This document shows, piece after piece, positions 1,960 through 58,403 of a stretch of DNA of 64,000 nt (position 1 is the first letter of the stretch; every line of letters begins with the position of its first letter). Source of the DNA: Arabidopsis thaliana (Eukaryota; Streptophyta; Magnoliopsida; Brassicales; Brassicaceae). A program made the position numbers and the translations under genes. The stretch is from positions 4,465,001 to 4,529,000 of the forward strand of contig NC_003075.7 in NCBI RefSeq assembly GCF_000001735.4. Reading direction: 5' to 3'. Under the pieces are notes generated by a model. The model saw only the letters and a list, made by a program, of their open reading frames with translations, did not search any database and was not told the origin of the DNA.

Positions 1960-2480
1960 TGTTTAATATTCAGGTAGATTAAAAGATTCTCAGAATCTAA
2001 ATGATTTTTTTTTGTGAATATCTTTTTTCTTAACCACATTTATTTTAAAGTATCGAACTATTAAAATGTCTACAAATTAATTACATATCTTTAAAAGAAA
2101 ATATCTGTGTAAGATTTTTGAGAGAAAAAACCAAAAAAACCCGTCATCTACTTTTAATTTGAATATTTAATACCTGTAGTATTAAATTTTAAATAAAAAT
2201 GCTTAACTTAATTTGGATTGCTTTTAAAACCTTCATTTAATAAAAATGAAATAATTCTTAAGATAGAACACATTTGTATGTTTATTCCTAGAATAGAACA
2301 CATCTTTTTTTTATTACTCAGATGTTTTCAGTAATTGTGTAATTACAATTAACACCCCTAACTAGTCTTAATTAATTATTATTATTTAATTTGTTTTTAA
2401 CTAAAAATTAAATGAAAAAACAGTGATTATACATGTCATCATTCCATGTCATTACCATAATCCACGTCATTAATCATCTC
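1960..2480. other. AT-rich intergenic stretch, no gene seen
   Basis: The stretch is AT-rich, with homopolymer runs and no convincing ORF or repeat. It separates the hypothetical minus-strand gene from the putative leader of the Ulp1-like gene, so the left edge of the MULE-like block probably falls within it. No terminal inverted repeat or 9-bp target duplication could be recognised by eye. Confidence 0.4.
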
Positions 2481-2981
2481 CAAACCGCATAACGTTTGGG
2501 TTTCTTATTTCTTGGCGTTACTGTTCATCATCTCCCAAAAAAAAACTGTCGATTTCTTCCTCTTTCTCTCTCGACGGAACGAAATCGATATCTTTCGCCG
2601 TTTTGCTCTTTTCTCGTCTGTTCCGGCCGAAATTCAAAGCGAATGATGGTGAGGTACGGTTTCGGCTCTGTTATGTTCTGTTTTTATCAAATATTTATGT
2701 TACGGCTGAGTTAATGTTTTGTTTTTTTTGTCAAGTATGGTATGTGAAGGCTGAGTTATTTTCTGTGAAGGCTGAGTTATGTTCTCTTTTTTTTTGGCAA
2801 ATATGTTATGTGACGAACGAGTTATGTTCTATAATGGCTGAGTTATATTAAGTGACGACTGAGATATGTTCTGTAATGGCTGAGTTAGCTTAAGTGACGA
2901 CTGAAATATATTAAGTGATGGCTGAGTTAAACATACTGATGGGTTTTCTTATCTCTTGTGTTGTAGCTGCGTGTTCGTACA
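2480..2981 (+). promoter_or_regulatory. Putative 5' leader and first intron of the Ulp1-like gene
   Basis: A pyrimidine-rich leader with TCTTCCTCTTTCTCTC (around 2555-2570) leads to GCGAATGATGGTGAG and a possible donor near 2654. From about 2700 to 2960 there are repeated GGCTGAGTTA words (for example near 2704, 2750, 2774, 2838 and 2878). A possible acceptor, TGTTGTAG, ends near 2967, just before the ATG at 2982. Leader and intron status are inferred; the repeated word is directly visible. Confidence 0.45.
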
Positions 2982-3689
2982 ATGGTTGAAAAGGCTGAGT
3001 TAAGCGAGCTGTTTCATTCTTGGCCAGACCAATTAGAAGACCCAACACTGGATAACTTGATCCAAGACTTACACGAGGTTAAGCTTGTTAAAGGTTATTG
3101 GGATGTGAAGACGAGTGAGAAGAAGAAAAAACTCGTAAAAGATAAAGAAGCAGAGGTGTCTGAATCTCCCGCAAAGAAGCAGAAGGTCTCTCAGAGTGAG
3201 GATGTTGATTCTCTTGAGAAAGATGCAGAAAAGAAGAAGAAGAAGAAGAATAAGAAGAAGGAAGTAGCTGTCGAATCTGATGAGGACGAGGATGTTCGTT
3301 CTCGTGAGCAGGATGGTCAGGGAGAACTGGAGTCGCTCGTGGATGTGGTGTCCAACTTGATCTCTCCCTTAAACTCAAGGTTTGACACCGTTGATACTAG
3401 CATAAAAGAAATGTCCTCCCGTTTGGATGTGATTGGAGGTCAAATCGAATCGAGGGTTGAAGCAAAGTTTGAAGGAAGGTTTGGATCGATTGAGAACGAT
3501 GTCAAACAGATTAAAGAGCAGCTGAAGGCCATAGCTGACTCAAAATCAAGCAGTTATATTAGAGATATATTTTTAGCCAAACCACAGCCCCAAACGCAGG
3601 AAGACAATCCTAAGGCCCAAACTCAAAAGACACCAAACGTTCCAAAAAAAACTACAAATAACCAATCTGCTACTCCTAGTCCTCCTCCG

Positions 3690-4108
3690 GTAAACTTTTA
3701 GTTAGTTATGACCGAGTTATCTGAATATTATTCGGCTGCGTTATAACTTTTAGTTAGTTATGGCTGAGTTATCTGAATTATACGGTTGAGTTATCTGAAT
3801 ATTTTACGGCTGAGTTATCTAAATATTTTACGGCTGAGTTATAAACGCTTGTTAGTTATGGCTGAGTTGTTTTCATGTTATAAATTTAGTTAGTTATGGC
3901 TGAGTTATATGAATATTATACGGCTGAGTTATAAATTTAATTAGTCATGGCTGAGTTATATGAATATGATACGGCTGAGTTTAGTTAGTTATGGCTGAGG
4001 TATATGAATATGATACGACTGAGTTTAGTTAGTTATGGCTGAGTTATATTTATACATAGGTATGAGTTTTCGTTATTTAACGCCTGAGTTTTCGTTACGT
4101 TTATGCAG
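3690..4108 (+). repeat. GGCTGAGTTAT array in intron of the Ulp1-like gene
   Basis: This 419-bp intron (donor CCG|GTAAAC, acceptor TTATGCAG) contains about nine exact GGCTGAGTT words plus variants. They are spaced roughly 25-45 bp apart with a looser shared context (TTAGTTATGGCTGAGTTATATGAATATTATAC). All are in plus orientation. The flanking exons contain none. Confidence 0.85.
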
Positions 4109-4951
4109 TCGAAACAAGCTGATGTTGGGGTATGTAGGAATCTTGAAGGAGAATTTGATAAGGTCTCCATTGTGTCTGATTTTGATTTCGTTGAGACTGT
4201 TTCTCCTCTCAACTGCCGTTTACGCTCTAGGAAGCCACCAGTCCCAAATGTGCCAAAGCAGAAAAAGGAGAAAACATTAAATGAGCTAATCCAGAAACCG
4301 CCAGCGAGAAGAGGAAGAAAGCCTTCGCAGCAGCCTAAAAAGGTGCCTCCTACTGTGCCAAAGATTACAATAAAGAACCCAAAACCATCTGAGGAAGCTA
4401 AGGAAAAAGCTGAGGAAGCTAAGGAAAAAGCTGAGGAAGATTCGGATGTAGTTGATGTCACGGATAAGGTTGTATCCGAGTATAATGAAATGCTTCCTGA
4501 GTCTGATGAAGATGAGGAGGAAACCAAGAGGCTAAAGAGTGTAAAAGAAATTCGGCTCAAAACTGTTAAGCTGGCCCCGGATGGGAGCTCATTGATTAAC
4601 CCCGAAGCTATGCCCACTCACACTTTTCCAGTTACAGGAGACAACGGGCTGAGCTGCATGAGAAAGGGTTGTCTGCCTTCACGAGCAATCTATGATCCTT
4701 TGGCACCGGTTGATCCGGCCAAACTGCTGAAGCTTAAGGCTTATTTGACAAGTCCCGAATGGTATGGCCCTTTATACATTACTAAGTTGATAAATACGAC
4801 ATGCTTACACTATTTGTTTATATTAACTTTCTTTACTATTTGTTAGCAAACAACCTTTGGAATTGGGGTGGACGAGGTGCTGTTCTACTCTGTTCTCATG
4901 GCCGAAAGAAAGGACTGGCCAGACCCGAAACATGGATGGCTGGGTGATGAT

Positions 4952-5223
4952 GTAAGTTATTGTTATATTCTGTCTGAGTTTGGCTAATGTTATGGCTAAG
5001 TTATCGTGTCGTTCTGTCTGAGTTAAAGTAGATAATGGCTGACTTACGATGTAAGTTATTGTTATATTCTGTCTGAGTTTGTCTAAGGTTATGGCTGAGT
5101 TATCGTGTCGTTCTGTCTGAGTTAATTTAGGTAATGGCAGATTTATTTCGGTGTTAAGGCTGAGTTTTACTTGGTTACGGCTGAGTTAATGTTGTGTTTT
5201 GTCTTGGTTTTATTTTTGTCCAG
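4952..5223 (+). repeat. GCTGAGTT-type array in third intron of the Ulp1-like gene
   Basis: The intron begins GTAAGTTATTG and ends TTGTCCAG. It contains a tandemly repeated block of about 85 bp (TTATTGTTATATTCTGTCTGAGTTTG ... TATCGTGTCGTTCTGTCTGAGTTAA) occurring twice, with further GGCTGAGTTA words near 5094, 5159 and 5180. The words again stop at the exon borders. Confidence 0.75.
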
Positions 5224-6037
5224 CACATTGCTGGGTATATGAAAGTCCTCACCATGAGGCTCCTGCGAGATCTCACCCCATACTACAGCGAACACGTCAT
5301 GATTCTAGACCCGTGGTTCACGTCAATGTGGACTAGGGATTACACACAGTGGACTATGAAGCCGAAGAGGGTTTCTTTCAAAGGTACCGCGTATGAAAGT
5401 TGGATCAACGATACGGGTGGAGAAGACCCGACAAACAAGAAGTGGATAACAGATGTGGATCACTTGTATGCTATCCTCCATACCGGAGGTAATCATTGGG
5501 TGAGCATTCACGTGGACTTGCCTAGGGGTCACGTGGACTACTATGATTGCATCATCGGATGTCATACAAAAAAAAGCGATGGAAAAATCCTGGAACACTG
5601 TAGGCCGTTCACGAGGATGATTCCACAGATCATGAGCGAACTTATCCCTCCCGAAGTCCGTGTCCCGCAATACGACCAATTTTCATTCCAGCGAAGGAAC
5701 ATTACAAGGGTCCCGCAGAATACTATCACCGGGACTGCGGCGTTTACACGTTAAAGATTCTTGAATGTTTATTGCTTGGTGTTTCTTTTGATGGCATTAC
5801 TGATTCAAATATCCAGGGGCTACGGGTTAGGATGGCAACAGAGATCTACGATGAACTACCTCACAGAATGCCCATTCGTTTTTTTGAGACATGATTTGCT
5901 TTTTCGAACATGTCTGTGTCGTTTGGGATTTTTAGCATGTGATTGTACTAAATATTGACACTTTAGGATTGATAACCAGAATTATGTCTGTATGAATCTA
6001 TTATTATGTTAATTATAACAAAAACCAATGTAATGTC

Positions 6038-6439
6038 ATGGATGCATCAGGTTCAGGTTCAGGTTCAAACAAGCGGCGGTGTGTGGATGACGGTCCCAAC
6101 AAGTGGCCGTCTGTGGATGACAGCCCCACCCTAAAGCTGTATGAACAGGAGAAGCGTTTCAAATCCGTCATCTCTTACATCAGGAGCAACATAAGGGAGA
6201 CGGCGGAAGCACACTTGCTCGATATCAAACTGCATGAGAAGGAAGCGGAACTTAAGGTCTTAAGGAGAGTGCAGAGGATGGGGGACGGATTTAACGTGGA
6301 GGAGGAGATCGAGAAAGTGCTGGCGCAGGTTGGCAAGGCCTACAGAGAGCAGCGTGAACGCCCGGTGAGTAGTATTGATGGGGAGAAACTGGGGTATGGA
6401 TCGACCGGGCGTCCAATTTCGGAGTCCGATGAAGAATGA
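6038..6439 (+). CDS. Small charged coiled-coil protein of unknown function, 133 aa
   Basis: This is an uninterrupted ORF from an ATG. After a Ser/Gly-rich start (residues 4-10) and a short repeat (CVDDGPNKW / SVDDSPTLK) it becomes a predicted helix rich in Glu, Lys and Arg (about residues 35-110), ending in an acidic ESDEE. I recognise no family. It lies 144 bp downstream of the Ulp1-like gene in the same orientation and is followed by GGCTGAGTTA-type words from about 6640, so it belongs to the same element block. It could be an accessory gene of the MULE or a chance ORF. Its clean length and codon-like composition favour a gene. Confidence 0.5.
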   Translation: MDASGSGSGSNKRRCVDDGPNKWPSVDDSPTLKLYEQEKRFKSVISYIRSNIRETAEAHLLDIKLHEKEAELKVLRRVQRMGDGFNVEEEIEKVLAQVGKAYREQRERPVSSIDGEKLGYGSTGRPISESDEE

Positions 6440-6619
6440 AGATGGCGATTGATGTGATTGTATCTTCATTTTTTATTTTCAATTACATTATATGTATGTT
6501 ATTGGATTCCAGTACTCCTTATCCTATGTTATCATAAACTCTGTCTTTTCAATTTTCAAACTTCACTTTTTATTTTATACTCGCGTGTGTGATTCAAAAA
6601 CTTTGTCTTTCAGATTTAT

Positions 6620-6870
6620 CGTAGATTAACTTGATGTTTGGCTGAGTTAAACATGTGACTCAATCATTGTTATTCTAACGTTAAGGGGGACTTATCGTAG
6701 ATTAACTTGATGTATGGTTGAGTGAATCTAAAGTTACAGCTGAGTTATTATATTTTAATTCAACGTTGGTTGAGATAGTATTGAGTTGTGGATGAGTTAG
6801 TCTAACGTAACGGCCGAGTTATTATAAATTTAATCCGATTGTACGTTGTGGCAAAGTTATAATCGCACAA
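6620..6870 (+). repeat. GGCTGAGTTA words, intergenic
   Basis: TGGCTGAGTTAAAC, TGGTTGAGTGAATC, CAGCTGAGTTATTA, GGATGAGTTAGTC and CGGCCGAGTTATTA occur in 250 bp between the small coiled-coil ORF and the minus-strand zinc-finger gene. The context TTATCGTAGATTAACTTGATGT is duplicated at about 6616 and 6691. Confidence 0.7.
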
Positions 6871-6937
6871 TTCGCTGTCTTAATGATAATTGACAGTACA
6901 AAGACGTTCAAATTGAGAAAAACAGATTAAGCTAAGA

Positions 6938-7528
6938 TCACATATACTTGTTCAGGCTCTCATACTTCTTCTCTAGCGTTTCAAACTTCTTTTCCATAAG
7001 AAAGATCTTTTCCACCTGAGACTCGACGCGCTTATTGGCTGCTTCCAGATCCTTCTTCATCTCAGTCGTCTCCTCTTTTATCATGTCAAACTCGTCACAC
7101 AATGCAACAGTCCACCATCTCTTGAAACCGCATCATTGACCGGGACCCTTATAAAAAAACCAGGAGGTTGATTCATAGGGATACAAAATGAAAGAAATAA
7201 AATAAAGAACATTAACTCAAGAAAAGATGCTTACATTTGATATTTCGTACGGACAACTGGAAAAAAAAATCCGGTTGTAACAGGATCAAGAGAAGTGGCA
7301 ACGACAACCTTAGCATTGCAATCACACTCGATCGGAACGCCCTTATCGCGCCTCCTGTTTTCGCCGTACCTCGTTCGCATCCTTATTTCCATACGGTCGA
7401 GCTCCTACATTAACACAACCATGATATACTCGACGTTAGATGGGTAACGATTTGTACTATTCAGATGTGGAGATAAATACCTCATCAACACTAGATTCGC
7501 CTTGGAAAAGAGACCTCTGAGCCATCAT
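6938..7528 (-). pseudogene. GRF-type zinc-finger protein gene, At4g04775-like
   Basis: Three minus-strand exons are read. The first starts with an ATG at 7528 (MMAQRSLFQGESS) and ends VDE|GTATTT. A second at about 7405-7240 holds VPIECDCNAKVVV. The third at about 7135-6938 encodes the aromatic RWWTVALCDE segment and a C-terminal coiled coil ending YESLNKYM. The paired Cys, the following VVV stretch and the aromatic segment before a coiled coil match the plant GRF zinc-finger family of the At4g04775 type. The frame breaks in the poly-A run at 7261-7269 (poly-T on the coding strand), inside the zinc finger, so the copy is probably damaged. It lies within the GGCTGAGTTAT block and may be captured cargo or an element gene. 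Confidence 0.55.
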
Positions 7529-7732
7529 CTTCACTGTAATTAGTATGGTACTAAAGCACTGGTTCTATATAGTCGTGTCTGCCACAAAATGTACTAATCA
7601 AACGACGGCGTCTTTGTATTGGCTGAATAAATTTAGAAGTGGCTGACTTGTCATAGCATTGCGGCTGGGTTTTCACTGATTTGTGGCTGAGTTATGTCGT
7701 CATACAGTATGTTACTACTTAGCGTGTTGCTT

Positions 7733-9048
7733 AGGTTGAGTTTATCGAGATTATTTATTATATCATTATCGAGATAACAAACAACAACTTTATGGGGAAC
7801 CGCCAGTAATGATTTGGTCCACATGCACAGGTACACACGCCCGCAGTTAATATTCAAAATAATTCAAACGAGGTCGAAATTATTCCTTAACTAAACCCTC
7901 CAATAATCAAATAACGTTACGGCTGAGTTATGCAATAAGATTTCGTGTTTTGGCCGAGTTATGAGATACCATATGTTATTATGATATATCAAACCAGCCA
8001 CCAAATTGTTAGTTATATTGGTAGCGTGAAGATGTGCAATTTCAAAACAAAAAATAACTTTTATTTTCAGCAAGTGTCGATTGACAAAACATGGTCTGTC
8101 AAAACCTCTAGGAAGTATGTTGTTGGATATAGTATGATGTTGGACAAAGTAGGCTGTTGGATAAAGTTTATATGATATGATCTAGTTTCACGGTTCCACT
8201 AGTTGGAATGTGGTTATGATATGCTAATTACTTGATTTTCACAACTGTTGGCTCAAGAAAAGCACTTTCAGGGTTTGGCCGAGTTATAACAAAGTGATGG
8301 CTGAGTTATGCATGTGATGTGGCTGAGTTATATTAGAAGATTTCGATTGTTCGAACTACATAAGAGAAAACAAAATGTTATTATGAGATTTGAATACAAG
8401 CATTATTGTTGGTTCGATTGATGTCATCAAATCAGTCAGAATATTGCTGTGTTTTGCTTTTGTTGAGTTTATCGAGAAACAATTATTATGTTATTCTCGA
8501 GATTAAAAAAAAAAATGAGTTAATAGGGAACCGCGAATAATGATTGGTTTCATAGATGCATGAACACGTCAGTAGATGATAATTCAAACGAGTTCGAAAT
8601 TATTCCTTAACTAAACCCTCCAATAATCAAAATTTCTGTTTCGACGTGGAATATTATAACGTTACGGCTGAGTTATGCAATAAGATTTCGTGTTTTGGCC
8701 AAGTTATGAGATACCATATGTTATTATGATAAATCAAACCAGCCACCAAATTGTTGGTTATATTAGTAGCGTGAAGATGTACAATTTGAAAACAGAAAAT
8801 AACTTTTAGTTTCAGCAAGTGTCGATTGACAAAACATGGTCTGTCAAAACCTCTAGGAAGTATGTTGTTGGATATAGTATGATGTTGGACAAAGTAGGCT
8901 GTTGGATAAAGTTTATAGGATATGATCTAGCTTCACGGTTCCACTAGTTGGAATGTAGTTATGATATGTTAATTACTTGATTTTCACAACTGTTGGCTCA
9001 AGAAAAGCACTTTCAGGGTTTGGCCGAGTTATAACAAAGTGATGGCTT
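7733..9048. repeat. Tandem duplication of a 0.58-kb noncoding block
   Basis: Copy 1 (about 7733-8310) and copy 2 (about 8463-9048) are offset by about 720 bp and nearly the same across TTCCTTAACTAAACCCTCC, GTGTCGATTGACAAAACATGG and CTCAAGAAAAGCACTTTCAG. Copy 2 has about 25 extra bases near 8632. Both copies include GGCTGAGTTATGCAATAAG and GGCCGAGTTATAAC words, so the motifs were multiplied with the block. No intact protein is encoded; the ORFs 7651-7857, 7891-8073, 7945-8175 and 9013-9213 are chance readings. Confidence 0.9.
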
Positions 9049-9310
9049 AGTTATTCCTTTATTGTGGCTGAGTAATGTTAGATTGCAGAGAAAAATATTC
9101 TCCGCTATTGACCAGATACGACGTGAGTTTGTTACAGAGTCTCCGTTATTGACCAGATACGTCGTCGTTGTGACAAAAACCAAATGAACATGGACACACT
9201 TATAAATCCCCAAAACGAAACCCTAAGTTATAAAATTCCAATTTCTGATTTCAGATCCGGAGCTCCTTCTTGCTTTTCGTCTACGAATTTCCCAGCTAAA
9301 AAATAAATAA

Positions 9311-9759
9311 ATGAGTAGCAATTCCGAGAACTCGATTGCGAGTACGCAATCCGTCAGCCGTTTGGGACTGGGTTACCATCGAAGTGTCATTGCGGATTAG
9401 ACGTGGTCATCTGTACAATGACATCAGCAAAGAACCCTGGAAGACCATATTTCCGTTGTCCTATGCGTAAAGATGTAAGTATATAATTGATTTGAGGGTT
9501 TTATTGGTTTCGTTGTTAATTGCGGATGTGATTGAATATACTGGACCATTTGTTTAAATGGGTCGAAGATGGTACATACGAAGTGGTTGTAGACAGTTGG
9601 CCTAAATTGTCCGCCATGGATAGTGAGTTAAGCGCGGCCAAGTCCGAGGTTGCTGTCGAGCTAGAAGCGTTACAGGCGATGGTGAAAGGACTGAAGGAAG
9701 AAGTGATGAGGAGCGAAAGGGAAAACCAGAAATGGAAATTGATGATCAAACTTTGCTGA
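9311..9759 (+). pseudogene. Second GRF-type zinc-finger gene, At4g04775-like
   Basis: The ATG at 9311 opens a Ser-rich N-terminus. The zinc-finger reading, CHCGLDVVICTMTSAKNPGR then PYFRCPMRKD, follows at about 9385-9473 one frame over, so a single missing base near 9377 interrupts the gene. Exon 1 ends GAT|GTAAGT. The second exon, from about 9540, encodes HLFKWVEDG and a Glu/Lys-rich coiled coil ending MIKLC. The order of Cys pairs, NPGRPYFRCP, LFKWVED and coiled coil is typical of the plant GRF zinc-finger family. It lies opposite in strand to the copy at 6938-7528, and the two sequences differ enough that they are not a recent duplication. Confidence 0.6.
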
Positions 9760-9989
9760 TTTTGTCTTGCCTTTATTATCATTGTCATTGTTTTTGGTAT
9801 CTTAATGTTCCCAAAAATCAGCGAATAGAGGCTTTTTCTTGGCTAATAGTTTGTTTTATGTTTGTATGAATTGTTTGCTACTGGAATCCATTATATGTTT
9901 GATGTTTATCTCAGCGTATAGGGTTAATTCGTTTTTTTGGTTCAAGTAGTAGCTTGCAATGAAATGGAACTTTGTCTTCGGCCAAGCTA

Positions 9990-10170
9990 ATCCAGTATCG
10001 TTGACTGAGTTATACTGGTAATGTTGTGGCTGAGTTAATCATACGCTATGGCTGAGTTAATATCTGTTGTGTCTTCGGAAATATAGGTTATGGCTGAGTT
10101 ATTATAATGTTGTGGATGAGTTAATTATACGCTATGACTGAGTTAATCATACGCTATGACTGAGTTATGA
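9990..10170 (+). repeat. GGCTGAGTTA array downstream of the zinc-finger gene
   Basis: Words TGACTGAGTTATACTGG, TGGCTGAGTTAATC, TGGCTGAGTTAATA, TGGCTGAGTTATTA, TGGATGAGTTAATT and two TGACTGAGTTA copies lie within 180 bp. The unit AATCATACGCTATGRCTGAGTT recurs at about 10037 and 10145. Confidence 0.75.
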
Positions 10171-10331
10171 TAAAATTTAACAAGTAACCTCAAGCGATAA
10201 CAACTGACTTTACTGAGAAAGCGATCGTAGATAATATGAGATATAAAGCCATCACAAAAAAAAAAAGAGAGTAACATACTGAGTTCATAGGAATGAGATA
10301 AAGGGACGATAAGTAAGAGACACAAAAACAT

Positions 10332-10925
10332 TCAAGACATGAAACCGACATCATCTGGGCCAAATTCAGTAAACATGTCCACCAAATCATTCCAAACTGT
10401 TGTCGTCATCCACCTCGGCTTATCTAAACCACGCGCCCATCCCCGTTTCAGCGCCCGCATATTGTCCCGGTACAACGTTCTAGCCACCAAATTAAACTGC
10501 GTCCACACCGTCAGCGTGTGCCTTGAATCCCAGGTGTGCATACGCTACAAAGAGAGCAAATAGTAAGAATTTGGTCTACGGTTTACAGGAAGTGCTTTAT
10601 ATAAAAACTCGATGCTTACCGTGAGGAGTAAAAACCATCTTGCCTTGAAAAAAACGGGAATCATCCGGTACGTCGGCCACGCATGGTGAAAGTTGCGCTG
10701 GAGTATATCACCAATCGCGACAGATAGTTGGTGATTGAATTTGAACCACGTAACAGTGGTTTTGTCGACCCATGTACCCAATCCAGGGTTTAGAACTAAA
10801 GATCTGCACGATCAGGAGCGGTGAGCACGGCTTCGACATCTCTTAGAAACTGTCCGTCGATGTGAGGCACCATGTCGTTAAGATGTGAGGATGAGACGTC
10901 TAAATGATGCGTTCAAGTAACTGAT
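10332..10925 (-). CDS. Unrecognised gene, at least three minus-strand exons
   Basis: Minus-strand reading gives a segment around 10910-10805 (HLNDMVPHIDGQFLRDVEAV), then 10790-10615 (LGTWVDKTTVTWFKFNHQ ... WFLLLT) ending in a GTAAGC donor, then 10550-10332 after a TTTGTAG acceptor (MHTWDSRHTLTVWTQFN ... GPDDVGFMS, stop). The Trp-rich, basic composition and WMTTTVWNDLVD are mildly reminiscent of plant transposase-associated proteins (Transposase_24 type), but this is weak. The gene lies between GGCTGAGTTAT arrays and so belongs to the block. Exon limits are approximate and the first frame carries stops. Confidence 0.35.
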
Positions 10926-10940
10926 ATATAGAAAAGAAAA

Positions 10941-11347
10941 GACAGGTAGAGGAATGCGAAAGGTTCCGTGTTTGTTCGTTTGGCGGGAAAAATTTCCGTA
11001 CTACGGCTAAGTTTGGCGGCAAAATATATTGTTACGGCTGAGTTATACCCAAGACATGTAACTATTATACGGCTGAGTTGTCAAGAATTATTAAAAAGGA
11101 CAGGTAAAGGAATGCGAAAGGTTCCGTGTTTTGGCGGGAAAAATATTCCGTGCTACGGCTGTGTTTGGCGGCAAAATATATTCGTTACGGCTGAGTTACA
11201 CCCAAGACATGTAACAATGTTACGGCTGAGTTGTCAAGAATTATTAAAATAGACAAGTCAAGGAATACGAAAGGTTGCGTGTTACGGCTGAGTTTGGCGA
11301 CAAATCGTCCTTGTTATGGTTGATTTAAATCGTCAAGAATTATTCAA
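10941..11347. repeat. Three tandem copies of a ~155-bp unit with embedded motifs
   Basis: Units start at about 10941, 11099 and 11250 (the third shortened). Each has GACAGGTAAAGGAATGCGAA, GTTTGGCGGCAAAATATATT and TTGTCAAGAATTATTAAAA, and the first two also have CCCAAGACATGTAAC. Each carries up to three CGGCTGAGTT or CGGCTAAGTT words, so the motif is amplified as part of a larger unit. The ORF at 10968-11252 is an artefact of the repeat. Confidence 0.85.
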
Positions 11348-11516
11348 TTCGATTTACTGACTAACCGAGGTACGGTTATATCCGGCCCAATTACCAGCGG
11401 TTTAATACGCCTATAAAAACGGCTTTTCCCATAAACACCAGAAGGCTAAACTCTCACAAACAGAAGCTAACGAGTTCAAAATATTTCTTTAATTTTCAAC
11501 GACTCGGAATTTCACC

Positions 11517-12534
11517 ATGGGTTACAACGGCCTCCGCGACTTGAATCCTTCCATAACTTGCTGGACGATTTGTGTTATGGTTCTTAGGAAGTACGTCTCG
11601 TTTTTCACAGATAACTCATTCGAACTACGGGTCGTCTTTGTCGAAGAGTGGGTAATAGAATCTTCACTCGTGATACAAGTCATATTTAACCTTGTGCTTG
11701 TCTTATTCCCTATATAACTCACCCTCCAATGTTGTTTTCATAGGGTATCCAAATTGAAGCTATAATCGGAAGTCGGTTTTCTCAACGTTACTACGACATG
11801 CTTGAAGAGAATCAGTGGAAAGAAATCAGAACTTTTGGTGTCATTGAAAACTGTGGTTTTGTCCGATCAACAACCCACAAATACATGATTGAGTTCATGA
11901 ATGCAATTGAGGTAACTCATTCCGACCCAAGGGAAACTGTATTATTTAACAGATTCACACCTTTTGACTACATTATTGAAGACACCGCTCATACTGAATA
12001 TTTGGTCGGTAAATAATACGTATCTAATGCAAATTTCATACTTTCACAAATCACATGCCTGTTTTTAATCTTTATTTCATACTCCCAGATTTGGTTGGTG
12101 CACTCGTCGATGTCGGATGTCTGAGAAATATTACAGAAGATGGTTGGGAGATGGACGGATTCAGACTTACCTTCGAGATTATGGACAAATAGTATAATTT
12201 CTTTTGTTTCTTTACTTCTAAATTTCTTTCTTTTCATCATGTATTTTTCTTGAGAGGGGTATAATTGTAACACTGTTTTATATGTTTCAGTAAGGAGAGG
12301 TTGAAATGTGAGGCTCTTGGCGAATTGGCGGTTGACTTGCATAGGAAATTTCGATCTTTTCGCAATGACAATATTGTTATTGACAATATATTTGTTGCAC
12401 TCACATGGTGGAAGATCTTTAGGTATCATACTGGCCCCAAACATGTGAAGATCCAAAATTATGCCGGGATATCAGATGTGACTGTCGACCCCAATATCGA
12501 AGAAGTGCAAGAGTTAAAAATGGTCCTCGAGTAA
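11517..12534 (+). CDS. OB-fold (RPA70-like/DUF223) protein, four exons, intact
   Basis: Exons 11517-11651, 11744-12008, 12089-12191 and 12291-12534 join in phase at GT..AG borders to an uninterrupted protein of 248 residues. It starts MGYNGLRDLNPSI and ends EELKMVLE-like (VQELKMVLE). The N-terminal half reads as a single-strand DNA-binding OB fold of the kind in plant replication protein A large-subunit paralogues (SFELRVV ... YYDMLEENQW ... FNRFTPFDYI). The C-terminal half (RLTFEIMDK ... VALTWWKIFR) matches the second OB fold of the same Brassicaceae family. In this family the protein is nuclear and binds single-stranded DNA; that role is carried over by family, not shown here. Motif arrays flank it on both sides. 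It is the only clearly intact multi-exon gene in the block, and a decayed paralogue lies at 17945-18947. RPA-like genes are also known as Helitron cargo, so it could have been captured. Confidence 0.75.
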
Positions 12535-12649
12535 TGCAAGATGGAAGGAATTGGGTTATTACCATTGTTTACTTTTCATTTCCTCCTATGTATCCTTCAA
12601 ACAACTATTTCTGGGAACTTCATTTTGTCTTTGCCTTCAAAATTCAGTT

Positions 12650-12990
12650 TGATAACTCAGTCGTATTATAATTAAATAACTCAGCCACTAAATAACATAA
12701 TACGAATATAACTCAGTCGTAAGTTAACATAGTTTATCTATAACTCAGCCGTAACAGGTAAAATGAACTCAACTCGGCCGTAACATGTAAAATAACCGAA
12801 CCTTTCCACTTCCCTAATTATATAACTCGGCCATAACATGTAAAATGACCGAACCTTTCGACTTCCCTAATTATATAACTCGGCCATAACATGTAAAATG
12901 ACCGAACCTTTTGACCTCCCTATTTAAATAACTCAGACGTAACATGAAAAACGGCCAGAATATTTTGGCAAATAACTCAGTCGGGATGTT
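12650..12990 (-). repeat. Minus-orientation motif array after the OB-fold gene
   Basis: Words of the form ATAACTCAGCCGTAAC and TAACTCGGCCATAACATG occur here, the reverse complement of GGCTGAGTTAT. A unit of about 58 bp (ATAACATGTAAAATGACCGAACC ... CCCTAATTATATAACTCGGCC) is repeated about three times between 12780 and 12960. Orientation switches relative to arrays at 2.7-11.3 kb. Confidence 0.85.
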
Positions 12991-13093
12991 AAATAAATAG
13001 CAATATTATAGTGCTGAGAGTCTACAATGTCACGAAATACATACCACGGTTGCCAAACAAGGGAAAGAAGACACATACGGAGTACAAACAGTA

Positions 13094-14838
13094 CTATGCA
13101 CGGCAAGTTTTAACATTGTGCCCTGTTTCTTTACATCGAGAACATGCGTGTTCCTTCCTAGGGCGTTTAGTCTCAACGGCGACTTCTAGTGCTGATTTCA
13201 TCCTTAGTTTCTTGGGCCTGCCTGGCTGGTTCGCAACAATCGGAGGCAAACACGGTTGGTCAATTACAATTTGAGGAACAGGGACTTCTGTATCTGAAGG
13301 CATGATTGCACCAGCGTACGCATTGACCAAATGACTGCTCTTATAATAAGGACTGCACAGGGATATACGAGACACACCCATATGCTCTACAGCTGCGATT
13401 GCATGGATGCATGGTAATTTCTCTTTGTCGAAAAGACGACATGTGCATTTTTTTCATCCACATTTACATCATGCAAAGATGCTCCATAAGTTACTTGAAC
13501 GCTGGAAGCATCAATCGTTTGTACATCTAGAAGTCTTGACGAGGTGACGCGGGTCTATTAGAGAGAAGAGACAAGAAACAAAACAAATACGTTATGGCTA
13601 AGTTATTCCCTTTATGGCTGAGTTATTCTCGTTATGACTGGGTTATCGTTATTCGACGACTGAGTTATGCACTAGTTACAGCTGAGTTACCTGTAAGAGT
13701 TTCTCAACACCACGTGTGAGCTGAGTATGCTGTTTGCTCGCATCATCTCTCCGTTCAGCAAATCATCTTGTCATCATCTGTCTTATCGCTTCTAACAGTC
13801 GAACTATGGGAAGATTTCTGCCTTGTGACAGTGCTCTCTTCATTGATTTCGCTATATTCGTAGTCATTAAATTGTATATTCGTAAACATGAAAATTAGGA
13901 TCATTTCCTTGTCTAGATGCACGAACCCTCCAAAGACATCTATCCACCCAGCACTCGTAAGATACTGTAGTCTTATTAGAAGTTGGTACATCAAAATCAA
14001 ATCCATCCCTTATCGCAAGAAGTTTGAGTCGATACTCCAACTCGAATTTGCTACGGTATTGTTGGCCTACCGCGAGTGTTAGCGTAGACAGCTCCAGCTT
14101 TAAATCAGTCAGGCTCCCAGCAGATCCTATCATTTCCATGGTCTGAGTTCTCTTCGAAGGAGAAGGTTTCGGTGAATCTTCGTCATTATTCTTAGGCTCG
14201 CCGTATACAGCAAAGTCTTCATCATCAGATGAGGCACCATCGGAGTCGTCAAAAAAATCAAACCGGCTAGAAAATTCATCATCTTCTTCGTCGTCACTTG
14301 CTTCTTTGTCAGATGCTTCATCGACACCTGATTCATCGTCCCCTGCTTCATCGTCCCCTGCTTCATCGTCTTGATAATCATAACAGACACCTTCAAACCC
14401 GCAACTATGAACTTCGAATCTAGATTCTGCTCTTGAGTCAGATTCAATAGGGCGTTTCGAACCCCTTCCTCTTGATCCGTCCTTCCGACTAATATCACTT
14501 GAATCTTTCGCCGTAAACTCCACATAGAGACGTAGCTGCTCGAATTTCGTCAAACCTAGATAACATTGCAACTGTCGATCATTGGAGATATAAACTGGTG
14601 GAGTATCGAAGGGCATATTTTTCAGAGTCTTGTTGGAGAACATGTAACTCAGCCGTAACTGATGGGTCGACTGATTCAATCCGTAATCATCGACCACCAT
14701 CTTCAAAAGACTATCGTAAACTGCTCTTTCCACTTCTAGCTGCACAACTTTACACCCTCTTTCGTCGGGGTTAAATACGAATCTCTGTTTCTTTACCCAC
14801 GAACCGGAAACAACTATGACCGTAGCGGGACCAGCCAT
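13094..14838 (-). pseudogene. MURA-type (MULE) transposase gene lacking its catalytic core
   Basis: The first part (start ATG about 14838, to 13755) encodes MAGPATVIVVSGSWVKKQRF, an acidic stretch with DDEAGDDEAGDDES repeats, and a MuDR-type DNA-binding region (FELEYRLKLLAIRDGFDFDV ... CLWRVRASRQ). The last part (about 13450-13094) encodes a SWIM zinc finger (CTCRLFDKEKLPCIH), the PGRPKKLRMKSA linker and a CCHC knuckle (CSRCKETGHNVKTC). The DDE catalytic domain expected between them is absent. About 180 bp of motif-bearing DNA (13560-13740) sits there instead. A one-base shift also lies in the poly-A just ahead of the SWIM finger. This is an internal deletion derivative: DNA-binding ends are kept and the catalytic core is lost. 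Its N-terminus matches that of the MULE at 32661. Confidence 0.8.
13590..13695 (+). repeat. GGCTGAGTTAT words inside the deleted transposase gene
   Basis: TGGCTAAGTTATTCC, TGGCTGAGTTATTCTC, TGACTGGGTTATCG, CGACTGAGTTATGC and CAGCTGAGTTACC stand in about 100 bp where the transposase catalytic core would be. They are in plus orientation, antisense to the gene. Confidence 0.75.
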
Positions 14839-15059
14839 ATCAAGAGAAAGATGAAAGAAATTGAAGATGTATGAGAAGATGAATGAAGACAAGAAAGTTC
14901 CGGTGATGTTGTAACGTTCAGGCGGTGAACACAGTCTGGGAAAACGAGTTAAAGAAGCAAGGGACGTTTCGTATTTCCGTCGAGGATGCTGACATGGAAT
15001 GATGAGATGGATTATTACAGCCGACGTCGTTTTGAAGTGATGACGTGGCAAGTCAGCCA

Positions 15060-15665
15060 CCAAACGAACAGTTCATAACACAGCCATGAAGCAAATCTTT
15101 AAGTCAGCCGCAACATGAATACTATTACAGTAATTAAAACAGGAAAAAAAACAAAGTTAATTCAGTCGTGGTATGTCGTAACTCAACTAACTCAACCGTA
15201 ACATTCAACAACTCGGCCATAACTGCATGATATTATAGTAATTAATCTTTTGAAAATAAGTCAGCCATAACATGGCTGAGTTATATCGTAATCCAGTTAT
15301 TAGCGGCTGATTTGTAACACTCGACCATAACTCAGCCGTCACATTGTTCCATAACTAAGCCGTTCAAAACTATAACTCGGCCGTGTCGAGGAAATAAGTC
15401 AGCCTTTTTCTCATAACTCAGCCATATTGTTGCCCGGTTATCGTATAACTTCTTATAACTCGGCCGACCATCCTTAACTCAACCATACCGTTGCCTGAGT
15501 TATACTATAACTCAGTCAACATTTTACAACTCAGCCGTAACGTCTGGCTGAGTTATACTCATACTTCGCCGTTTTGTTATGACTCATATATTTTTGACGT
15601 AAGTCAGCGGCAACATACCGTAACTCAGCCGTAACTGCCGCTGTATCGCGTTACGGCTGAGTTCA
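15060..15665. repeat. Dense GGCTGAGTTAT/ATAACTCAGCC array, mixed orientation
   Basis: At least fifteen words such as AACTCAGCCGTAAC, AACTCGGCCATAAC and AAGTCAGCCATAAC lie in about 600 bp upstream of the MURA-like gene. Most are in minus orientation, with plus copies near 15274, 15544 and 15653. Adjacent opposed copies, as at 15266-15281, could pair as short hairpins. The array stops near 15665, then a short AT-rich stretch leads to the minisatellite. Confidence 0.85.
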
Positions 15666-15879
15666 TTTAATCCACGTCAGCAAATTCTGACGTGGCAGTG
15701 GCATTCCCTGTAATTACGTTTTTTCCGGTAACGTTTAGTAGGGGCACGTTGGGTAATAAAAAAAAGTCAAAAATATAACAGTTATTAAAAAAAGTTCTGT
15801 CGTGTTCTGGTAATAACACCTAATTTCTTACCCATCACAGTTAATCTCCCAATAAAAATTCATAAAATCACATACCCGA

Positions 15880-17565
15880 GTTAACGGTTGTTAATGTCTT
15901 TTTATCGCAATTTCTCGTAAAACTGTATTTTACTCGTAAATAGTTATGTCCGTTAAAATATTGACGGTTACTTTTTTACATTCGTGTCTTTCATCGTAAA
16001 TAGGTGTGTCTGTTAAAATATTAACGGTTATTCTTTTATATTCGTGTCTTTTATCGTAACTTTTGGTTAACATTGACAGTTACTTTTCTGTTAGTATTTT
16101 TTATCGCAACTTCTCGTAAAACTGTATTTTTATCGTAAACAGTTGTATCTGTTAAAATATTGACGAGTTACTTTTTGACATTCATGTCTTTTTATCTTAA
16201 CTTTTTGATATATGATTATTTTTCCATTAGTTTCTTTTTACTGCAATTTTCTGTAAAAATATTTAAGGTTATTTTTTTTGTTGTTGTGTCTCTTTATTAC
16301 AACTTTCCGTTATAATATTGACAGTTATTTTTTTTTTTTTGTGTCTGTTTATCGTATATTTCCTTATGAATAGTTTTCTACTTAAATATTTATAACTGTT
16401 GAACTCTATATATTCGTCTTTCTTCTTAGGTAATTTTAAAAATTTTGTTCTTTATCACATATTATTTGTTTCATGATGAATCCAAAATTAATGTCTTTTG
16501 CATTTCTGAACGGTTGTATTTTTTTTTTATCTCAACATCTAGTTAAAATGTTGACGGTTATTTTTTTGTTCATGTCTTTTCATCGTAACTTTCCGCTAAC
16601 AATGACGGTTATTTTTTCCGTTACTACATTTTTATCGCAACTTTTTGTTTATATCTTTGTCATTTTAATATTGACGGTTATTTTTTTGTTGTGTTTTCTT
16701 TTCGCAACATTTCGTTAAATTATTTACAATTACTTTTTTAGTTAGTTTATTTTCATCGTAACTTTCTATTTATATTGACGGTTATGTTTTCCTTTAGTTT
16801 CTTCGTATCACACCTTTTTGTTTGTTTCTTTTTATCGTAACTTTCTGTTATTATTGACGGTTATTTTTCCGTTTGTTTTTTTTATCGTCACTTTGTAAAA
16901 ATATTGACGGTTATTTTTTCTTGGTTGTGTCTCTTTATTGTAACTTTCTGTTATAATAGTGACGGTTATTTTTTGGTTGTGTCTCTTTTATCGCAACTTT
17001 CCGTTAAATATTGACGGTTATTTTTTTATTCGTATCTTTTCATCGTAGCTTTCCATTAATATTGACGATTCAATTTTTCGTTAGTGTTTTCTTAATCGCA
17101 ACTTTTTGTTAGTGACTTTTCATCATAACTTTTCATTAATATTGACTGTTATTTTTCCTTTAGTATTTTTTATAGCAAATTTTCATAAAAATATTGAAAG
17201 TTATTTTTCCTTGGTTGTGTCTGTTTATTGCAACATTCCGTTAAAATATTGACGGTTATTTTTTTTGATTATTTTATTTTATCGCAACTTTCCATTAAAA
17301 TATTGACAGTTATTATTTTCGATCATATTTTTTCATCGTAACTTTCTGTTTACATTAACTGTTATTTTTTTCGTTTTGTTTTTTATTGCAATTTTTTTGT
17401 AAAATTATGGACGGTTATTTTTCTTCGGTTATGTCTTTTTGTTGCAACTTTTCGTTATATTATCGAGTCTTTTCATCGCACTTTTTCATTAAAATATTGA
17501 CACTTACCTTTTTTCGTTCATATATTTTTATTGTTACTTTTGGTTATTTATTGACAATTATTTTA
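15880..17565. repeat. AT-rich minisatellite array, right copy
   Basis: The units are the same type of 40-55 bp as at 1-560 (ATATTGACGGTTATTTTT, TTTATCGCAACTTTCCGTTA) and number roughly thirty. The last part, 17202-17563, repeats 1-365 almost base for base. The match ends abruptly at about 17565, where DNA without this repeat begins, so the array is truncated there. Short ORFs inside (16473-16718, 17386-17580) are low-complexity readings. The stretch from 17566 to 17944 shows no gene. Confidence 0.9.
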
Positions 17566-22759: not shown

Positions 22760-24418
22760 TGATAAGTAGGTCTTTTAGGCCTACTTATGCTAAATGTGTG
22801 AGGTTCAGTTCAATTCCCGTAAAACACAAACATGTCGATGCAGCTATAGGGGGTGTCAATCAAGTCCACTGTTATTGCTAGCAATCAAGACGTGTACAGA
22901 AGCAATTAAGTCAAGCCAGATTATAATGATGGTGGGTTTCTAGTAACAATCATAGGTCAGGATTCAAACAAGTAAAAATGAGAACTTAAGAGCCCTACTC
23001 GATCATTGGGTCGAGTAGAACCAACAGGTGTCGAAATTAAGTAACTAAAATGCAATCAACAGGGGATACAAATAACAGGTAAATAAAAGTGCAATCAACA
23101 GGGGATACAAATATATCTAATAGGAGTCCTAAGGATGGATTCATTGATAAGGGCAACTCTAGGGTTCATCAGATAGCTAATAGGTGAAAGGTAGATACCC
23201 TTGACGATAAATTCAAAAACTGGGTGAATCCACTGTCGTGATAGAGACCCCCAGAACTCTACCACTTCCTAATCTCAACTGTCATTGATGAAACATAGCA
23301 GAGCAGGGTTTAAGAAACAATCTACCAAATCCAATAAGCAGACAAGCCAATGTCTTGGTCGAGTCTACAAATCTCTGGAATTCGTAGATCAGACATCCAT
23401 TTGAACGTCTTTTGGACGTTGGACGGCAATGATCGAATCTCCACATTAGCCAGCGAAAACCACATAGGGGTCAAGCGAAGTCAGAAGGGTTCTAACCTAA
23501 TCTTTACCACTTGGCTAACCTAGAGATTACCCTAATCTAATCCATCCTCAAGAACCCTAATCACTACTCAAGCAACATTCTCAAGAACACAAACCCAGAA
23601 ATTACTGAAATCATACCAAAATGTAGATCTAAACAAGCTAAACAACTTTACTTAAACAACTAAATGCAAAACAAAATAGATTAAGAGTAATTAAGTTTTG
23701 AAGATTCATAAACACAAAGAAAAACTAAAGGATAAAAGCTCGATCCTTTGGACAAACTCCAAAGTGATCTATTTATAGTAAAACGTTAAAACCCTAGATT
23801 CACTAGAAGACAAGAGACTTGAGGCGGTTTGGGTGAATGCTCGATCTTGGGGATCAAGTAAGGAGGGTGCTGCAAAGTCTGCGCCTTTGTGTCTATGCTC
23901 CGAGTGATCAATTGGTCGAGTAGATGCTTCTTCCTCTCCTATCTGTATGCTCAGATGTCTGTTTGAGTGGGGAATGAAGAGGATCCGAAGACGCTTTGAT
24001 AGCTCAACAAGTCTTGTAAAGTTGGTCACCCTTGGTCGAGTAAATGGGTCGAGTAGAGGATCGAGTAGGAGGGGCGAGTAGATCAATCTGCTGCTTCATC
24101 AGAGGCTGCCTTGATCGAGTAAGAGGGTCGAGTGAATTGCAGCCTCCTCTGTAGCTGCCTGGATTGAGTAAAGAGGTCGAGTGAAATGATGCCTCTTCTG
24201 TAGCTGCCTGGATCGAGTGAATGGATCGAGTAGAGTCCTTTTTAGCTCCTTCCGCACCTGAAAACACACTGAAACATGCAATGCAAATGCAAGATGATCC
24301 TAGAGCCTAAGTATGCAAAATAAGCTAAAATGGTGCAAAATGATACGATACAATGAGCATATGCACAGCTAAATGATGATAAACATACACCTAAAATGAG
24401 TAAAATACAATGTTATCA
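22760..24418 (-). mobile_element. Solo LTR, 1,659 bp, TSD GCTAG
   Basis: The segment begins TGATAAG and ends TTATCA and is flanked by the direct repeat GCTAG (22755-22759 and 24419-24423). Removing it rejoins the gag reading frame (MALDAA|SNGNF), which proves insertion. A TATA box reads on the minus strand (CTATAAATAG, 23770-23779), so the LTR points left. It carries many GGTCGAGTA words between about 23880 and 24230. No internal coding region is present, so recombination between two LTRs is the likely origin. ORFs at 23769-24281 are chance readings of the repeats. Confidence 0.9.
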
Positions 24419-29608: not shown

Positions 29609-30540
29609 TAGAGAAACAAAATGATAGATGAAATCAAATACGGAATCTGAATAACTTTGGAAAAAACTCGAATTACAGGTTGCAGAAGCAAAATGGCGCA
29701 GCCACAGTAAAAACAAAGAATAAAACTGAAGTAAAAACTCAATGTTGACTAGATGTCCTAGGAGAAAACCCTCAGACACCTATTTATACAAAACGAAATA
29801 AAATGATAGTAGATAGGTCGGGAACCCAATCGACCGGCCTATAGACTGATAATGGGCCGAGATGGGCTTCGCGATTAGATGAAGCTCTGGACCGCTTCCA
29901 AACACTTCTTCTACTCCTCTTCTCTTCCTTGTGTTCAGCTTGTCTGGTTGAGTGCAGATTCGAGTAAACTCTGAAGATGTGGTCGAGTGCTTGGTCGAGT
30001 GATGGTGTTGGGTGGTGACAGCTTTACTCAACCAGGGGGTTGAGTACGGTGGCCGAGTGAACGGCCAAGTGGTGGTCAGTTGGTATGACGAAGTGTTACT
30101 CGACCAAATGGTCGAGTGGTGTCATCAAGTGGCCTGGAGTGTGGTTACTCGACCAGGGGGTCGAATGATTGGTAAGAATGGCTCCAATGTTACTCGACCA
30201 GGGGGTCGAGTGTGCTGCTGGAGTTACTCAACCAGGTGGTCGAGTAACTCTTCTGGTTCCGGCTTGCTTCATCCAATTTGCTTGCCAACAGCTCCAAATC
30301 ACCTAAAACATCTCAGAAATGCAATATGTATGCAAACCTATCCTAATCATGCAAAGTATGCAAGAATGTTGAGGAATGATATAAAACAGTGATGAATGAT
30401 ATGAAACTAAACTCAAATCGATGATGAATGAACACTGAAATCATGCAAATTGTAGACATTTCAAAAGTAACCATATCTGGGAGCTCTCATGTCACCTCAT
30501 CACGCTAAACAGTTCTGAAACACAAACAAGTCATTATAGA
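29609..30540. mobile_element. LTR-like fragment with GGTCGAGTA/TACTCGACCA words
   Basis: The sequence resembles the second half of the solo LTR at 22760-24418: CTATTTATA near 29780, clusters of GGTCGAGT and TTACTCGACCAGGGGGTCGAGT between 29950 and 30250, then CATGCAAAGTATGCAAGAATG-type sequence. The palindromic TTACTCGACCAGGGGGTCGAGTG arrangement occurs several times. No TSD was found. The ORF 30012-30392 only reads these words. Confidence 0.55.
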
Positions 30541-32660: not shown

Positions 32661-34932
32661 ATGGAAGAGATAATATTAGTGTGTGGAAAGTGGAATTTCA
32701 ACAACATGCGGTGGGTATTTAGTGTTGATGAACGAGGCAGATGTAGGGTTCTAAGTTCGAATCAAATTAAAGGGTATGAAGATCTTGTTGAAATGGTATA
32801 TGAGGATTTCAGTTTGGATAGTAGGGATTGTAAGGTTAGTCTGAGTTATAAAATTTGTATATCGATGCTTATTCCCGACGATACACCTCCGGTAATAGAT
32901 TGTAACGGAAGATAATTTGAAGGTTTTCTCCGTCATTGTAAAACGGGAAGCACACAACTATGTGTTACGGTACAAGCTACAAGTTGTTTGGTTGGCGAAC
33001 AAGAAGTTGAAATTGTCGATCAGGGTTGTCGGATAACTGAGGATGTTCTTGGGTTTAGTCGGCGGAAAATCCACAAAAACTCTGATGAATCGAGGATAAA
33101 GAAAGCGGAGCCAATTATAGATGAGGAGTATGTCGATATGAAGGGAGCTTCGATAGAGGAGGGGGATGGTAATCAAGATATGGATGAAGACGAGGATGTT
33201 AATGCAGAGGAGGATTCAAATGAAGAGAAGGATGAAGACGAGATGTACTGATTTGATTGTTTCGATGATGCTGATGGAGCGAGTGACAGGGATGAGGAGT
33301 CAAGTGTATACGCAACGTATTTGAAAGATAAAAACCAGTCTGGATTTGATAATGGATTTGGTGACAATATGTTTGAACTATTCAAAAGTACATCAGGAGG
33401 ACAACATGTTTATAGTAGAAAAAATGAGTTTGTGAACCTTGATTTCGGCTATGTATTAGATTTAGAAGTTGGTCAAATATTTGATTCAAAAGATGATTTG
33501 GAGTATAGACTGAAGATACTGAGTGTATTTCAGAAGTTTGACTTCAATGTTGGTCGATCACTTCCGGAATTATATAGTGTCAAGTGGTGGGTGCCTGGTT
33601 GTAAATAGAGAGTTCGAGCGACACCCACAAGGGTTGGTTCATGTTTTAAAATTTGGGTCTATATATCAGACCATACGTGCTCTGTGAAATTCGGGTCTAT
33701 AATTCGGGTCTAAATTCGGATTCCCATTTATGAGAAAACTAATTGTGGTGGACGGGATATTTTTGAAAGGGAAATACTTAGGTACGCTATTATTAGCAAC
33801 AACCCAAGACGGAAATTTCAATATATTTCCTTTAGCATTTGCTATTGTTGACACTGAGAACGATGCGTCGTGGGAGTGGTTGTTTAGACAACTAAGCTGT
33901 GTGATTCCGGATGATGATGGGCTAGCGATAATATCTGATAGGCATAAATCTATAGGGAAAGCTATAAGAAATGTGTATCCTCTAGATAGCCGTGGTATTT
34001 GCACATACCACTTACATAAGAATATTTTGCTTAGATTCAAGGGGAGTGAATCATTTGGGTTATTGAAGAAGGCAGCTACAGCTTTTCAACTGTCAGACTT
34101 TACTGTTTTGTTTCAGCAGATCCATGAACTAAATCTAGAGCTACATAGCTTTTTGGTACGAACTGATTTAAGTATGTGGACTAGGCTACACTTTCCGGGC
34201 GATAGATACAACTTCACAACAAGCAACAATGCTGAGACAATAAACAAAGTTCTTAGGCCCTACAGATACTATCCTATTGTTGCATTGCTTGATGAAGTGA
34301 GGATGATGCTAACCCGTTGGTTTGCCACTAAGCATAAACAAGCATGTGGAATGACAACAACTCTGACCACTGGTGTTGAAAAACTATTACGGGTTCAAAT
34401 TCTATTTAAACTCTCCATAATAGATAACTTTACTACTTATGTTATTGAATGACTCTCCTTTATATGTGGTCAGAGCCGCGTGTTAAGAGCTAGTGTTCTA
34501 AAAGTGCAAGAGATAGATCCTCATCAATACGAAGTGAAAAGCTTTTCAACAATAAATGTTGTCAATCTATCCCAAAAGAAATGTACGTGTCGTATGTTTG
34601 ACCTCGAGAACTTACCTTGCATTCATGCAATCGCTGCTGCAGAAAAGGCCAAAGTATCAAGGATCACAGATTGTCACACTTACTACCGTAAAGACTACCT
34701 TTGCAACGAATATGGCAATTCGGTAATGCCACCTGAATCATGCACTTTGGCCGACATCGTTTTGCAGAAAATATGCCACCCGCCTGACGTGAGGCCCCAA
34801 CCTGGTAGGCGTAAAATAACAAGAGTGAAACCTACATTACAGGTTGCATTGGATAGAGAAAGACCAAGAAAATTGCATGCGTGTTCCCAATGTTGTAATG
34901 GTGGCCATAATCGAACAATATGGAAAAACTAA
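32661..34932 (+). pseudogene. MURA-type (MULE, VANDAL-like) transposase
   Basis: From ATG 32661 the reading starts MEEIILVCGKWNFNNMRW, homologous to the N-terminus of the gene at 14838. An acidic stretch follows, and then the DNA-binding region (DLEYRLKILSVFQKFDFNV, about 33500). The catalytic domain is 33730-34452: first Asp in VVDGIFLKGKY, second Asp in IISDRHKSIGKAI, CTYHLHKN, and the Glu in SNNAETINK. A SWIM finger (CTCRMFDLENLPCIH) and a knuckle with its last Cys replaced (CSQCCNGGHNRTIW) close it at 34932. In-frame stops at 32913, 33249 and about 33606, plus a short deletion before 33730 and a stop at 34450, inactivate it. The catalytic triad itself is preserved. Transposases of this kind cut and rejoin element ends in the nucleus. 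Confidence 0.85.
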
Positions 34933-52080: not shown

Positions 52081-52191
52081 GCCATTCAGCTGGATCTCGC
52101 TTTTAAACTAAGTCCACCTTCGACGAGAAAGCAGTAATCATTGAGAGGATGGTTAAACGATTCAAGCCAGCACCATTACCTTCACGTGCTC

Positions 52192-54530: not shown

Positions 54531-54532
54531 GC

Positions 54533-55560: not shown

Positions 55561-55570
55561 TCATCCCAAT

Positions 55571-55904
55571 CTAGAGAAAAAGGGCGATTGATATAGTCAC
55601 CTTTAGTGAATTCCCTGTTGACATCTTTCTCCCAAACCCTTTGAGAAGGTATTCTCTCATTTGGAAGCTTTGGCCATGGAAATCGATAAAAAGGTGGTTG
55701 AGGGGCTGCAGCTTGGGATTGCGGTTGGGATGGTCGGAGACAGGCGGCGGTGGAGAAGCGCTGGCGGTGGTGAGGGGCGGCGGTGGAGAAGCGCTGGCGG
55801 TGGTGAGGGGCGGCAGAGGAGGAGGAAGGTCCAACGCTCTTCCTCGCCTTCTTTTCTGCCCTGTCATCTTGTCGGTCGATGGAATTGGCACTTGGGGAAG
55901 ATAG
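55571..55904 (-). pseudogene. N-terminal part of the ATHILA ORF with a duplicated 33-bp repeat
   Basis: From ATG 55891 the reading is basic (KMTGQKRRRGRAL) and then Pro/Ser-rich. A perfect 33-bp duplication (about 55743-55808) gives PPPLTTASASP twice. It is GC-rich unlike its surroundings and likely the start of the same gene as 54533-55560. Confidence 0.5.
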
Positions 55905-57736: not shown

Positions 57737-57752
57737 CCTATCAACTTTGGCG

Positions 57753-58370: not shown

Positions 58371-58403
58371 TGATTCGTTTTCTGCAATTAGGAAAGATGA
58401 AGG

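Follow-up and report, generated by a model that had tools for sequence, protein, structure and literature searches.

A dense non-coding word in a VANDAL-type element of Arabidopsis thaliana as the probable target of an Ulp1-type VANC protein

The window analysed here, a stretch of 64,000 nucleotides of Arabidopsis thaliana (C4:4465001-4529000; contig NC_003075.7), contains a Mutator-like element of the VANDAL type, which lacks clear terminal inverted repeats (non-TIR) and has a 9-bp target-site duplication. A short word, GGCTGAGTTAT, fills its non-coding DNA. This array is likely to be the target of an Ulp1-type VANC, a protein with a DUF1985 and an Ulp1 domain that relatives of the element appear to encode. 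The evidence comprises the arrays themselves, their near-absence from exons, their family specificity, their retention in short derivatives, the helical phasing of the word, and the occurrence of DUF1985 and Ulp1 in the same relatives. From these features we infer binding, cooperativity, demethylation and the choice of the DNA-reading domain. An Ulp1-type VANC acting on its own motifs is an already published kind of system: according to the review PMC13317346, some VANC genes have an Ulp1 domain and target motifs belonging to their own kind. The KIU (Kaonashi) VANDALs resemble the window family in having such a gene, acting on own-kind non-coding motifs.

In the proposed mechanism, relatives of the element would encode an anti-silencing protein of the VANC type for which the word is the binding site specific to this family. 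Introns, intergenic stretches and upstream regions would offer it many words, which it would occupy mainly along a single face of the helix, probably in a cooperative manner. Array-bearing copies would thereby lose their DNA methylation as well as other silent marks, and the beneficiaries would include the crippled window copy as well as gene-less derivatives.

With up to one mismatch, 72 matches to GGCTGAGTTAT were found in the window, 71 of them inside the element at 2704-15630, as against a mean of 0.74 and a maximum of 3 in 100 shuffles. When two mismatches were allowed, 99 of the 112 window matches fell within 2480-15790 (73 on the plus strand and 26 on the minus strand), which agrees with the initial annotation, where the word was said to fill non-coding DNA in both orientations. 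The span given there, 2480..15790, marks a real block but is slightly short, as the element extends over 2248-15850. The further claim that the exons lack the word is nearly, not strictly, correct: 2 of the 71 words with up to one mismatch are located in exons and 69 in non-coding DNA, and the proposed comparison of densities confirmed a depletion in exons (0.33 vs 9.25 per kb). The corresponding numbers in exons are 0 of 25 for exact words and 4 of 99 for words with up to two mismatches. For these counts, exons were drawn by hand with splice sites placed by eye and approximate borders, giving a total of 6141 bp vs 7462 bp of non-coding DNA. The conserved context of the word reaches GTTAYGGCTGAGTTAT, a direct repeat GTTAY-GTTAT whose halves are 11 bp apart.

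The word is also specific to the family across the genome (119.7 Mb in 7 contigs). The exact 11-mer occurs 562 times (284 + 278), vs 22 (13 + 9) for the reversed word, and the extended 16-mer 152 times vs 0 when reversed; exact words on the same strand that begin 18-48 bp from each other form 91 pairs, vs 0 in the control. These figures uphold the earlier proposal of a family with its own word. Among 100 listed of the 152 16-mers, 78 have a family marker no more than 5 kb away, and the other 22 comprise 11 inside long family copies, 10 in a block at C3:12.176-12.187 Mb and one on C1. Scattered single copies of the word exist: on C1, 14 of the 48 exact 11-mers are isolated, and the 11 of these that are not near a marker amount to about twice the number predicted for C1 by the reversed control. 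Word fragments are the commonest 8-mers in most family loci, down to L019, with 53% Ulp1 identity; in L006-L008, L020, L030, L033, L035, L053 and L055, a different 8-mer ranks first or shares first place. In L019 and L017, word arrays lie downstream of Ulp1, where the window copy has few words.

Four short derivatives of 2359-2386 bp (L057, L066, L067 and L068) keep both ends of the element, and their longest open frame is 135 codons. Their target duplications agree at 9 of 9 bp in L057 and L066 and at 8 of 9 in L067 and L068. Each carries 31-34 words (up to two mismatches) in about 2.4 kb, and the resulting 13.1-14.3 words per kb are similar to the value for non-coding DNA in the large element (12.7 per kb). 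No words are present in their first 709 bp.

The spacing of the word was characterized in the window and 33 loci, which yielded 891 same-orientation neighbour spacings; increasingly strict removal of similar spacers reduced these to 164, 142 or 85. Peaks were observed at 22, 31, 42-44, 53, 62, 71-73, 82-85 and 94 bp. The best period was 10.4-10.6 bp with a phase near 0 (nR2 35.8 at n=142, and 16.7 in the stricter set of n=85), and none of 2000 jittered sets attained the nR2 of either set. Because the spacings lie at multiples of about 10.5 bp, most sites are on one face of the helix. Without the short spacings, the best period rises to at most 10.8 bp. Starts of the 91 exact pairs, homologous copies included, are 20-24 bp apart in 62 cases, 27-33 in 13, 34-40 in none and 41-48 in 16. 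For the remaining repeated 8-mers of the block, with 21 spacings, nR2 at 10.5 bp was 2.96 and the phase was different.

The candidate reader can be seen in the relatives. In the one at C2:5191k, both exons expected of an Ulp1-type VANC gene were found, with DUF1985 at E 1.5e-22 and Ulp1 at E 8.7e-61. The exon that the window copy lacks is the DUF1985 exon of the relatives, and it is because of this loss that no VANC could be named in the initial annotation, a statement that holds for the window copy. The DUF1985 and Ulp1 exons are probably spliced into one protein, and the splice phases of DUF1985 and the exon that follows agree on visual inspection. By position, 11 of 150 matches in a genome scan were placed in the family; in nine of the 11, a frame of at least 275 amino acids runs across DUF1985, and two of the nine stop shortly before the exon end. 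A variable region with peptide repeats is also present, containing a 21-bp coding repeat at 4389-4439 and EEAKEKAEEAKEKAEE in L069, together with an AT-hook-like stretch, RRGRGRKP, noted by eye. The presumed catalytic positions of Ulp1 (His, Asp, Gln and Cys) can be read in the copies on C5, C2 (5195k), C2 (10604k) and C4 (3163k); the C2 (3069k) copy has DCS instead of DCG, and the frame of the window copy is interrupted just ahead of the presumed catalytic Cys. The pooled ratio of nonsynonymous to synonymous differences (pN/pS) was 0.63 over 55 pairs of the DUF1985 exon and 0.54 over 21 pairs of the N-terminal exon of the transposase. An AlphaFold model of the DUF1985 exon was discarded (mean predicted local distance difference test score, pLDDT, 39), and a sequence-based search of the Ulp1 exon against a structure library returned a single match, at E 0.0034, which was judged spurious.

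The words of VANC21 and VANC6 are described as enriched outside exons in Hosaka 2017 (PMC5735166). According to the same paper, VANDAL21/VANC21 (Hiun) is similar to the window family in having a short word that is concentrated in non-coding DNA, for the most part outside exons and partly in tandem repeats, a DUF1985 protein whose variable region contains peptide repeats, and other genes in the element; VANDAL6/VANC6 has the same anatomy, with targets common to related families. The second domain of both proteins is DUF287 there, whereas the window family combines DUF1985 with Ulp1. The words differ as well: the VANC21 word YAGTATTAY was not found in the window element, and the VANC6 word AGTTGTCC/AGTTGTAC (AGTTGTMC) occurs in it once. 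The comparison proposed in the initial annotation thereby ruled out identity with either published word.

Locus L073, presumably VANDAL21 from its position, served as a positive control, and the same k-mer scan ranked AGTATTAC, the published VANC21 word, first in it. Both L073 and L074 contain DUF1985; L074, taken as a VANDAL6 locus, differs from the window family in carrying DUF287 besides. Related families have dense words of their own, namely AAATCTGT in L058-L060 and TACGTACA in L038. The latter leads after plain TA repeats in L075, which may be a VANC1-type locus (a guess from its numbering) and where no copy of the window family's word was found. The accessible text of Sasaki 2023 covers VANC1 and its targets VANDAL1, 2, 22, 1N1 and 2N1 and gives no word for them, and that of PMC12312487 covers the mobility of VANDAL21 and VANDAL6. 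A literature search for VANDAL together with the string CTGAGTTA, which did not extend to supplements, found nothing. The abstract of Sasaki 2022 (EMBO J) reportedly mentions that domains were gained and lost, that there are at least ten such systems, and that a helical periodicity exists.

Several observations weigh against an Ulp1-type VANC as the reader of a helically phased word. In the strictest spacing set, 8 of 2000 jittered sets attained the observed value when spacings of at least 37 bp were considered. Two common spacings, 24 and 28 bp, are each off-phase alone, although in L015 they alternate to give 52. Phasing was not detectable in the comparator families, VANDAL21 included, where spacings are too few. 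For the Ulp1 exon, the ratio of nonsynonymous to synonymous substitution rates (dN/dS) ranged from 0.76 to 1.66 among five copies (10 pairs). No DUF287 was found in exons of the window copy, of L069 or of L071, and the same scan succeeded in the control L074 (E 4.3e-25). As for the VANC6 control, AGTTGTMC occurs 6 times in L074 and is outside its top eight 8-mers. Finally, positional conservation is modest: in 21 non-independent copy pairs, substitutions reached 6.1% in words and 8.6% in their 11-bp flanks, as compared with 6.7% in other non-coding DNA and 7.8% in exons.

It is possible, if rather doubtful, that the VANC reader is a sequence-specific SUMO protease and that anti-silencing in this family proceeds by targeted de-SUMOylation, in which case DUF1985 or the variable region would align VANC on the helically phased words and the Ulp1 domain would locally remove SUMO from silencing factors.

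Other explanations of the array have to be considered. The words are unlikely to serve transposition by binding the transposase, or some other protein of the element, in the manner of the subterminal repeats of CACTA elements. Such a role would fit the density of words upstream of the transposase gene and in the right-hand portion of the short derivatives; however, words are also found throughout the VANC introns, kilobases away from the ends, the beginning of the four derivatives (709 bp) is free of them, and another word is present in related families, where transposase identity is 45-46% across about 150 amino acids.

Passive growth of tandem repeats by slippage, possibly tolerated as a source of small interfering RNA (siRNA) and requiring no reader protein, appears more improbable still. 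Many words do lie in tandem repeats, with unit lengths from 20 to 153 bp, and the modest positional conservation points in the same direction, but mutually dissimilar spacers share both the word and the 10.5-bp phase, and the occurrence in both orientations, the near-absence from exons and the retention in short derivatives also speak against slippage. An origin of all words from one simple tandem repeat was rejected because dissimilar spacers have the word in common. The least probable explanation, to which we give very little credence, is binding by a host transcription factor, such as a bZIP protein. These proteins read TGAGTCA-like sites, from which TGAGTTA is one base away, yet the element has TGAGTTA 62 times and TGAGTCA 4 times. 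Moreover, the 91 close word pairs have no counterpart for the reversed word in the genome, and 89 of the 100 listed 16-mers are in or near family copies.

The class of the element was assessed using the defining features of VANDALs (non-TIR Mutator-like elements) as tabulated in PMC6446971. The window copy is flanked by the 9-bp duplication AATAAAAAT on both sides; terminal inverted repeats are absent or short and degenerate, with 10 of the first 24 positions matching and short inverted matches inside the ends (best 16 of 17). PF03108 and SWIM are above the cut-off in its transposase, and the zinc knuckle (CCHC) is below it. The MULE domain (PF10551) was found in the relative L040 (E 4.3e-22), and the corresponding part is deleted in the window copy. 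The VANDAL-type assignment of the initial annotation is therefore supported here by the MuDR DNA-binding domain, SWIM and the duplication, and for the MULE domain by a relative. At the right border, 15850, homology with the C2 and C5 relatives ends, as it does in further loci. The left 253 bp have 40 genome matches, 26 of them from the first base; since that query itself began at 2248 and on its own cannot set the left border, the border rests on the target duplications of the window copy and of four derivatives beginning at the same base.

Compared with the relatives on C2 (5191k) and C5 (13286k), whose main aligned pieces for the most part show 93-96% identity, the window copy has lost about 1.05 kb with the MULE domain from its transposase at 13870-13877 and about 480 bp near 6035. 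Without the DUF1985 exon and the catalytic part of the transposase, it can be a target and could hardly produce a full VANC or transposase. A word-bearing unit of about 745 bp (7724-9082) is present in about two copies in the window and about ten in the C2:5191k relative. The features are listed in Table 1.

Table 1. Coordinates of the element, its genes and its word arrays in the window
Feature	Position	Strand	Remarks
Whole element, non-TIR Mutator-like, VANDAL-type	2248..15850	.	13,603 bp
Left copy of 9-bp target-site duplication AATAAAAAT	2239..2247	.	identical to 15851-15859
Right copy of 9-bp target-site duplication AATAAAAAT	15851..15859	.	
Junction: intron and DUF1985 exon of relatives absent	2626..2634		comparison with relatives; DUF1985 in L069 at 760-1683
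Word array, putative VANC intron	2704..3003	+	final word just within next exon
Putative VANC exon, Lys-rich	2967..3690	+	no domain found; open frame, splice sites by eye
Word array, putative VANC intron	3734..4047	+	
Putative VANC variable-region exon	4108..4753	+	3' border approximate
Coding tandem repeat (EEAKEKA peptide repeat) in variable region	4389..4439	+	21-bp unit
Short putative VANC exon	4848..4951	+	by eye
Word array, putative VANC intron	4994..5189	+	
Ulp1 (Peptidase_C48) exon	5223..5895	+	PF02902 E 2.2e-47
Words, intergenic	6640..6822	+	
Words in or beside tandemly duplicated ~745-bp unit	7685..9076	+	
GRF zinc-finger-like small gene	9311..9759	+	PF06839 E 3.5e-5, 24.2 bits, below 25.9 cut-off
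Word array, intergenic	10003..10168	+	
Words within 153-bp repeat units	11036..11234	+	
OB-fold-like gene (DUF223)	11518..12533	+	PF02721 E 1.1e-19
Word array, partly in 53-bp units	12652..12982	-	
Transposase C-terminal part	13094..13555	-	SWIM and sub-threshold zinc knuckle
Words between two transposase pieces	13596..13668	+	presumed intron
Transposase N-terminal exon	13700..14840	-	MuDR DNA-binding domain
Word array upstream of transposase	15075..15630	-	both orientations

Other repeats were observed in the window. Both flanks of the element (1-560 and 15958-17560) carry an AT-rich repeat (ATATTGACGGTTATTTTT) whose length is mostly 52-55 bp, and an 18-mer of it has 26 exact copies in the genome. 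The remnant of another MULE transposase is located at 32667-33638 (32% identity, three stops). Another word, ACTCGACC, occurs 22 times in the window (once inside the element) vs 0.95 expected, clustering at 23009-24182, 29981-30245 and 49919-50089, and is also dense in L020 and L030. The words CGATCGAC, GATCGACA and ATCGACAC are present in 22-25 copies each at 52000-64000, vs fewer than one expected.

Taken as the probable target of an Ulp1-type VANC, the array would add to the known sequence-specific anti-silencing systems one with a well-defined word and a candidate reader. The helical phasing of the word is directly testable, and the short derivatives represent natural constructs that contain the array alone. 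An active Ulp1 domain would hint at a mechanism for the step that leads from binding to the loss of silencing.

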